From contig JAJZLY010000014.1 of the NCBI GenBank assembly GCA_021850485.1, positions 33,526-97,525 of the forward strand: a DNA stretch of 64,000 nt, in the 5' to 3' direction. The first letter of the stretch is position 1, and each line of letters starts with the position of its first letter. A program made the position numbers and the translations under genes. Source of the stretch: Bacillota bacterium. GTDB taxonomy: Bacteria; Bacillota; Sulfobacillia; JAJZYS01; JAJZLH01. The notes below the pieces were generated by a model. The model did not search any database and was not told the origin of the DNA. It was given only the letters and a program-made list of their open reading frames with translations. Shown piece by piece: positions 29,187 to 40,828 of this stretch.

Positions 29187-29201
29187 TATCGAGACCTCCT
29201 T

Positions 29202-29308
29202 GGGCTTACGAGGTGAGCTGACGGGCTCGGTTGGAGGTACACCCGGCCACCTGCGGTGGCTTCGCCCCGATTCATGGTTCCCCCGTCCGCCAGATGGCGG
29301 CTCAGCCC
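29202..29308 (-). ncRNA. c-di-AMP riboswitch (ydaO/yuaA type)
   Basis: On the minus strand the leader ends with CCGAGCCCGTCAGC-TCACCTCGTAAGCCC, almost identical to the highly conserved 3' part of ydaO riboswitches. The 5' part has GGGCTGAG (closing-stem strand), then CGGGGGAACCATG and CGGGGCGAAG, matching the other conserved blocks. GGGCT and AAGCCC close the structure. ydaO riboswitches turn genes off when c-di-AMP is high and are well known upstream of potassium transporters. Here it controls kdpABC and the following small genes. Confidence 0.92.
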
Positions 29309-29323
29309 TAACAAACATCGGTC

Positions 29324-39367: not shown

Positions 39368-40561
39368 TCAAGGATCAGCCTGATAGGCGCCCACAGCAGC
39401 AGTCTGCGCCTGCATCGCGTCAGATGCCCAGTGCAATGCCGCTCCCAGTCGCTCCTCATATCCCTCATTCAGTGGAGAATTAATGGGACTCACCGGCACT
39501 TCCCATCCGCGACTCAGACAGATCACACGCACGGCGGCCAAGTCTTCGCCATCGGCGACAGCCAGTAGCGACCGGAACTGCTCCAGTGTCTGATCCACGG
39601 GCTCATCACCAGGCAGCATGACCTGGCATAACAGCATCTCTGCGAGCGTGCCTGCCAGTGCCGCCTGCCCGTCGCACCATGTCTCAGCCAGGCTCTCCTT
39701 CAAGAGCGCAACAGAAGTCTTTACGTCACCCAGCTGGCGGTGGAGGACGGCCAGATTGTGTCGCGTACGCTGCCGCTGGGCGACGTCAGACGCTCGCTCG
39801 AGCAGGTGCCTAGCCATCGGAAGGGCTGCCTGCGGTCCCCTCCAGGCCCAGGTTGCTACCATCTCGCCCAGGCGGCTTTCGAAGCCAGCACCCTGCCAGC
39901 CCAATAAGTGCCCAGCCTTGCGATACTCACTGACCGCTTCCTGATACGAGCGCAGGCGACTGAGCAGATGGCCGCGCGCATAGTGAACCATGGCCCGATC
40001 CTTCGGCAACCGACGGCAAAGGCGCTCGGCCCTGTCCAGCCTGTCCAGAGCTGCATGGTATCGGCCGACGCCGGCCAGGGCCAGCGCATGATTGAAGGCG
40101 CCGCGCAGTCGGCGCTCGGGGCTACCTTGGCGCTGGTACGCCCGCTCCATGCGTGCGAACCACAGGCAGGCCTGTCTGGCTCGGCCCTGCTTGAACCTCA
40201 TGATGCCTGCCAGCCGGCACAGCTCGCCGGTATATCGGCCACGGTAGGATTGCCGGGCCATGGCGACGACCCGGCCCAGCACAACACCCGCTTCCGGGAG
40301 CCAGCCAGCGTTGATTAACTGCTCTGCCAACTCCAAAAGCGAGTGGCAGCGCGACTCACCGGCCAAATGAGCCGTCAGCCAGTGGTTCGGGTCCAGCGCG
40401 AACAATCGCGTCGCTTCCACCTGCAGCCGTGCACTGGGCAGGCGAATCCCGGCCTCAATGCTTTGCACATAGCGTTGGCTGACCCCCAGCGCCCGTGCCA
40501 CATCCGAGGTTGTGAGGTGGTGCCCTTGCCGAGCCTGCTTCCACCAACCGCCGCCACTCAT
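39368..40561 (-). CDS. HTH-TPR transcriptional regulator, RRNPP-like peptide receptor
   Basis: From ATG 40561 the product is about 397 residues. The first 35 form an XRE-type helix-turn-helix (LTTSDVARALGVSQRYVQSI). The rest is all-helical with TPR-like repeats, for example AFNHALALAGVGRYHAALDRL, VHYARGHLLSRLRSYQEAV and ARHLLERASDVAQRQR. An N-terminal HTH followed by TPRs is the architecture of RRNPP regulators (PlcR, NprR, PrgX), which bind exported signal peptides encoded next to them. A 54-codon signal-peptide-bearing gene starts divergently 103 bases away. In-frame starts up to 40672 would add a 37-residue tail and overlap that gene, so I prefer 40561. The Shine-Dalgarno there is weak. 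Ligand and targets are unknown. Confidence 0.72.
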   Translation of the reverse strand: MSGGGWWKQARQGHHLTTSDVARALGVSQRYVQSIEAGIRLPSARLQVEATRLFALDPNHWLTAHLAGESRCHSLLELAEQLINAGWLPEAGVVLGRVVAMARQSYRGRYTGELCRLAGIMRFKQGRARQACLWFARMERAYQRQGSPERRLRGAFNHALALAGVGRYHAALDRLDRAERLCRRLPKDRAMVHYARGHLLSRLRSYQEAVSEYRKAGHLLGWQGAGFESRLGEMVATWAWRGPQAALPMARHLLERASDVAQRQRTRHNLAVLHRQLGDVKTSVALLKESLAETWCDGQAALAGTLAEMLLCQVMLPGDEPVDQTLEQFRSLLAVADGEDLAAVRVICLSRGWEVPVSPINSPLNEGYEERLGAALHWASDAMQAQTAAVGAYQADP

Positions 40562-40663
40562 CGATTGGGAAGCGAACAAAGCGGTCGTCTGCCTCCCTTG
40601 AGCACTCAGTCGGTGGTGGTCGACGCTGGGTGACGGCATCGAAATGGACGAGGAGGTTATCCA

Positions 40664-40828
40664 TTGAGACATCGGCTGGTGCGCTCCCTCGGATGGTTCT
40701 TAGTGCTGTTGTCGGCGCTTGGTTCGGTGGCGACCGCTCCGCATCCTGTCATTCCCGCCAACTCTCACCAAATCGCGACGGTCATGACCACCGAGCCCAA
40801 CGGTCCCCTGCCGCCGCAGCCGATGTAG
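40664..40828 (+). CDS. 54-residue secreted peptide precursor, candidate signalling peptide
   Basis: TTG 40664 lies seven bases after a full AGGAGG (40651-40656). The product has a textbook signal peptide: RHRLVR, a hydrophobic core (LGWFLVLLSALG) and an A-T-A cleavage site after residue 25. The predicted mature part runs from PHPVIPANSHQ to the end EPNGPLPPQPM, about 29 residues without cysteine. Short size, export signal, proline-rich C-terminus and divergent pairing with an HTH-TPR regulator match pro-peptides of RRNPP systems (PapR, NprX, Phr). The stop is immediately followed by the start of the flavoprotein gene. No homologue is recognised; function is inferred from context. Confidence 0.68.
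   Translation: MRHRLVRSLGWFLVLLSALGSVATAPHPVIPANSHQIATVMTTEPNGPLPPQPM

Follow-up and report, generated by a model that had tools for sequence, protein, structure and literature searches.

A putative RRNPP-type receptor and propeptide pair with a proline-rich peptide tail in the bacterial class that holds Sulfobacillus

The window (the whole stretch of 64,000 nucleotides that was analysed, with a GC content of 63.9%) derives from a MAG of the Bacillota, in the class to which Sulfobacillus belongs (Sulfobacillia in GTDB). It encodes a regulator with an N-terminal HTH domain and TPR repeats head-to-head with a 54-codon ORF, which is followed by a flavoprotein gene (Table 1). The preliminary description of this DNA had claimed the head-to-head arrangement; both ORFs are present as described and kept in two congeneric genomes, and the flavoprotein gene, which was left unmentioned, is added here. 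The relatives that bear names are likewise Bacillota MAGs, and NCBI taxonomy still lists Sulfobacillus under Clostridia incertae sedis. The host is outside the Bacilli, as had been claimed, but still belongs to the Bacillota, the phylum from which RRNPP systems are known (PMC10075063, PMC12700828, PMC9765709), and so is less exotic than had been implied. The window also contains a c-di-AMP riboswitch (ydaO/yuaA, positions 29189-29317 of the reverse strand, 71.6 bits).

Table 1. Features of the receptor-peptide locus (positions within the window)
Feature	Position	Strand	Basis
Receptor/regulator, N-terminal XRE-type HTH followed by TPR repeats	39368..40561	-	ORF and Pfam
Candidate operator GCGAACAAAGCGGT	40572..40585	+	EM motif; class consensus GtGAaCAAAnCnGT
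Shine-Dalgarno GAGGAGG of the peptide gene	40650..40656	+	Sequence; SD match length 7
Propeptide gene, 54 codons, TTG start	40664..40828	+	Frame and length kept in two congeners
Codons of the predicted pheromone core GPLPPQPM	40802..40825	+	Alignment of 17 class peptides and pattern scan
CoaC-like HFCD flavoprotein, 191 aa	40829..41404	+	Pfam Flavoprotein, E 1e-24

The longest receptor frame spans 39368-40672 (reverse strand), with possible starts at ATG 40561, TTG 40579 and ATG 40672; ATG 40561 or TTG 40579 is likely to be the true start because of conservation with relatives and the boundary of the HTH domain. The product has the TPR repeats and, at 397-434 aa, the size (about 250-500 aa) that characterize RRNPP receptors, and possesses the HTH DNA-binding domain found in all of these but Rap (Pfam HTH_3, E 7.3e-7, above the cut-off; TPR repeats are matched too, most TPR models scoring below their cut-offs). 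Its orthologs in the two congeneric genomes are 75% and 59% identical. NCBIfam, which may not model every named RRNPP subfamily (PlcR, NprR, Rap, AimR, Rgg, ComR, PrgX), contains no receptor match near its curated cut-offs; among solved structures, the natural bacterial regulator that ranks best in sequence-profile searches is PlcR (E 4e-10). A phage origin was rejected for lack of any match in phages, and a plasmid origin was rejected as well, Bacillus plasmids matching only the HTH domain of the Sulfobacillus thermotolerans receptor used as query.

The AlphaFold2 model of the receptor (pLDDT 94.5, pTM 0.87, from a 24-sequence alignment) comprises an HTH domain and a TPR superhelix resembling RapI and NprR. 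When this model is compared by VIA-align, LGN, a eukaryotic peptide-binding protein, ranks first (Z 24-25); RapI (Z 22.7, rmsd 4.1, 313 residues) and NprR (Z 20.2, rmsd 6.0, 297 residues) are also matched, and several Rap-peptide complexes rank after these two. The modelled fold is compatible with an RRNPP receptor but not diagnostic of one, because one TPR superhelix looks much like another. A name for the receptor based solely on Foldseek was rejected, the top matches being generic TPR proteins (LGN and designed repeats).

Upstream of the peptide gene, the strong ribosome-binding site that had been claimed is confirmed 7 nt before the start codon, which is TTG. The distance from the peptide ORF to the receptor ATG at 40561 is 102 bp, and both this spacing and the length of 54 codons fall within the limits set for RRNPP propeptides (a length of 10-100 aa and a position between -60 and 400 bp relative to the receptor gene; PMC10075063). 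The peptide has no Pfam match. It consists of a basic N-terminus, a hydrophobic stretch and the C-terminal sequence TEPNGPLPPQPM, the first two being recognized as export features by a simple rule of hydrophobicity and charge. The A-T-A cleavage site proposed in the preliminary description is followed by Pro at +1; its counterparts in relatives are AVS or ATV. The site is not conserved and is at most a tentative point of cleavage.

The same pair with conserved C-terminal peptide residues, a finding in relatives that had been set beforehand as a check, is present in 3/3 genomes of the genus. The peptide is exactly 54 codons long in all three, with no indel, and ends in PPQPM; 15 of its first 42 residues are invariant versus 12/12 in TEPNGPLPPQPM. 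Differences in the C-terminal part are mostly synonymous (pN 0.03-0.07, pS 0.19-0.50, versus pN 0.23-0.32, pS 0.46-0.61 for the whole ORF), a contrast that rests on few synonymous sites, since DNA identity of the last 12 codons is also high (30/36 sites). Purifying selection is centred on the C-terminus of the peptide. Judged by sequence, an invariant tail joined to a diverging leader is the pattern expected of a prepeptide whose mature part would be the C-terminus. A chance ORF was rejected on the grounds of the synonymous bias of C-terminal change and the class-wide association with the receptor described below.

The stop codon of the peptide abuts the start of the flavoprotein (TAG/TTG), which has no obvious Shine-Dalgarno sequence of its own, and the order of the two genes is the same in 3/3 genomes of the genus; the flavoprotein gene is probably co-transcribed and translationally coupled with the peptide gene. 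It is a second, stand-alone CoaC-like copy, a separate CoaBC-type copy being located at G000:C1. EpiD/CypD enzymes act on a C-terminal Cys. The abutting genes and their constant order, together with a putative active-site His and a PxMN motif, both kept in the flavoprotein, might indicate that the peptide is a ribosomal precursor modified by an EpiD/CypD-like neighbor, with the HTH-TPR protein as regulator of the cluster. This is very improbable: the peptide of all three genomes ends in Met and has no Cys in its tail, the flavoprotein scores 21.8 bits against the RiPP decarboxylase model (cut-off 215), and no flavoprotein was found near the pairs of other families among the part of the ORFs that was searched against Pfam. 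The same junction and missing Shine-Dalgarno sequence could also mean that the small ORF is only a leader that couples translation of the flavoprotein and has no extracellular role, which is more improbable still, given that the tail stays conserved at the protein level while its codons change synonymously and that comparable ORFs accompany receptors where no flavoprotein is seen next to the peptide.

A profile search with a 6-row alignment finds clear receptor homologs in families f1, f3, f4, f10, f42, f43 and f46 of the class. Outside the class, the draw of genomes from the phylum contains one distant receptor match (G214), and its locus (L099) has no convincing peptide. The surroundings of the receptors were searched for ORFs 28-90 codons long that have a Shine-Dalgarno sequence, a net positive N-terminus and a hydrophobic stretch, counting the 30 receptors for which 500 bp or more of upstream sequence is available and only those peptides that are divergent and no more than 300 bp away. 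Such an exportable-type ORF is present at 15/30 receptor loci, versus 5/428 starts of other long ORFs and 1.9% of positions chosen at random. With about 2% expected, the association has p about 1e-18, a value that is too small because the 15 loci are not all independent (L076/L077 and L083/L084, for example, are near copies). The occurrence of the pair in relatives extends class-wide, with a common C-terminal core.

The remaining half of the scanned receptor homologs have no divergent peptide under this strict rule. Receptor homologs without an adjacent peptide had been named in the preliminary description as evidence that would count against the pair; some exist (tandem paralogs, G020 and two copies in G092), but several have peptides elsewhere in the cluster or are situated at contig ends. 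In the receptor tree of f4, one clade occurs in tandem without divergent peptides, and the peptides are found at the end of the cluster. Peptide copies beside f4 receptors are in near-identical tandem in G007 and paired in G006, and several of the contigs concerned stop at these copies. Peptide ORFs beside tandem receptors are located near contig ends at L070, L071, L072, L073 and L075, in two tandem copies at L071 and L075, and repeats probably broke the assemblies at these five loci.

Alignment of 17 peptides of the class reveals the core [G/A/S]PxxPxx[L/I/V/M/F] in most tails, and the form GPxxPxx-hydrophobic is found in families f1, f4, f42 and f43. Besides GPLPPQPM of the window, the core tails include GPGDPGPF, GPGGPGTL, GPGDPGPL, GPADPGPL, APGGPGPL, GPTWPPVL and GPPWPPTV/L, along with SPGDPGVI, APGDPGTL and APGNPPAL of the f4 arrays; looser forms include NGPDPVIL and GSTGPAPIML (f10), the second from the tail region of the S. 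thermotolerans pair, and GPKNCDPVL (f3). The proline-rich C-terminus that had been pointed out earlier is part of a wider pattern, with a tail of 12 residues invariant in the genus and a core common to the class. A tail of the form [GAN]P.{0,4}P is present in 14/15 of the divergent ORFs versus 4/42 other candidates, and those four also lie in receptor loci. The core pattern alone is not unique (29/2418 small ORFs, about half of them unrelated); what is specific is its combination with export features and adjacency to a receptor.

The genes that adjoin the pairs differ between families: the flavoprotein in the window's genus, an amidase at L083, a glycosyltransferase at L088, and genes for a Cys-rich exported peptide, a thioredoxin-like protein and FtsX at L076/L077. 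For this reason, the flavoprotein is a local target or passenger outside the core pair. The Cys-rich exported peptide (76 aa; L076:3672-3902, L077:6493-6723) comes after the pheromone-like ORF and at L076 is followed by the thioredoxin-like protein and the FtsX-type permease; it may be a bacteriocin-like product with disulfide bonds, controlled by the pair. The genes beside another receptor-peptide pair (L080:812-4310) encode thioredoxin-like, MauE-like (membrane) and weakly MauD-like proteins together with an ABC exporter, a set resembling a peptide export and maturation cluster. The export and redox gene sets that adjoin some f4 pairs (L076, L080) would suit a different reading, namely that the small exported product is an effector (bacteriocin-like or acting at the cell surface) under an HTH-TPR regulator that senses something else, with no feedback by the peptide. 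This is unlikely: what is conserved is a short tail rich in proline, receptors whose neighbors are unrelated come with the same tail pattern, and propeptides duplicated in tandem have been described as a pheromone pattern of RRNPPA systems (PMC11343458).

The divergent promoters of the pairs have an element in common, GTGAACAAAnCnGT. In an EM analysis of 13 divergent regions, GtGAaCAAAnCnGT emerges in f1, f3, f4 and f42 at a distance of 19-25 nt from the start of the HTH gene, with a log-likelihood of 58.1 versus 42.3 +/- 2.2 for mononucleotide shuffles, a difference inflated by the kinship of the three f1 sequences. By its sequence, GCGAACAAAGCGGT is a candidate operator; in f1 and in the window's genus the element overlaps possible 5' codons of the receptor. 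The whole genome contains only two exact matches to it, and the second (G000:C32:1988-2001) is inside an OppA-type gene, probably by chance. Sites with at most one mismatch number 16, versus 5 for a reversed-pattern control, which is too weak, and calling a regulon from the element was rejected. A simple search for inverted repeats in the divergent regions found little.

With a probability of about 85%, the pair is an RRNPP-type peptide quorum-sensing system; the likeness in architecture to PlcR-PapR, NprR-NprX and Rap-Phr that had been proposed is supported by conservation, class-wide pairing and the common core. For export, maturation, uptake, binding and the direction of regulation we infer the following scheme. 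The 54-codon propeptide would leave the cell through the Sec pathway and undergo extracellular trimming to a short peptide from its C-terminus, with NGPLPPQPM at the centre; an oligopeptide permease would re-import this product (the genome encodes three OppA-type binding proteins and has eight BPD permease matches, one of them adjoining an OppA gene). The divergently encoded HTH regulator may then bind the mature peptide in its TPR superhelix, and binding would alter the action of the regulator at an operator in the shared promoter region of about 100 bp. Population density would thereby control the peptide operon, which here includes the flavoprotein, and probably the receptor as well.

We conclude that the pair in the window belongs to a subfamily that extends across the class and has a proline-rich peptide code of its own. 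When 83 acidophile genomes were surveyed, Sulfobacillus was credited mainly with an AHL-degrading enzyme and not with a complete signalling system of its own (PMC9040811). The literature yielded no report of a peptide signal in the Sulfobacillus class, and no paper joining Sulfobacillus with RRNPP was found in main texts, an unnamed listing in supplementary tables being possible. It is rather probable, with clearly less confidence than for the pair itself, that the missing quorum sensing of the Sulfobacillus class is an RRNPP-like subfamily with a GPxxPxx-hydrophobic code and co-diversifying receptors, peptides and operator; in the same class-wide reading, some lineages have several such pairs per genome. 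If so, bioleaching and acid-mine communities would have a testable signal, RRNPP-type systems would extend to a class kept apart in the genome scheme used, and natural receptor-peptide pairs would be available for study of the evolution of specificity. S. thermotolerans, a cultured species, carries a pair, so the idea is directly testable.

What is new here is rated as a subfamily within the already known RRNPP kind of system. Like NprR-NprX and PlcR-PapR of Bacillus, the pair comprises a cytoplasmic HTH and TPR receptor and an adjacent short propeptide, here putatively of the Sec type, but it differs from them in its GPxxPxx-hydrophobic tail, its divergent gene order and a host class outside the Bacilli. 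Rap-Phr systems are similar in the TPR part, which superposes on RapI, and in their paralogous multi-copy families, but Rap lacks a DNA-binding HTH (PMC9765709), which the present receptors possess. Numerous paralogous pairs with an HTH-TPR receptor are also a feature of AloR-AloP, 'subfamily 08' of the Paenibacillaceae and AimR-AimP. The peptides of AimR and subfamily 08 are reported to carry a DPG motif (PMC12700828), and several f4 tails read GDPG, but the tail of the window has no DPG. The mature peptide of AloP13 is SHGRGG, and the AloP ORF is downstream of its receptor (PMC7425212), whereas the peptide ORFs described here are mostly divergent.
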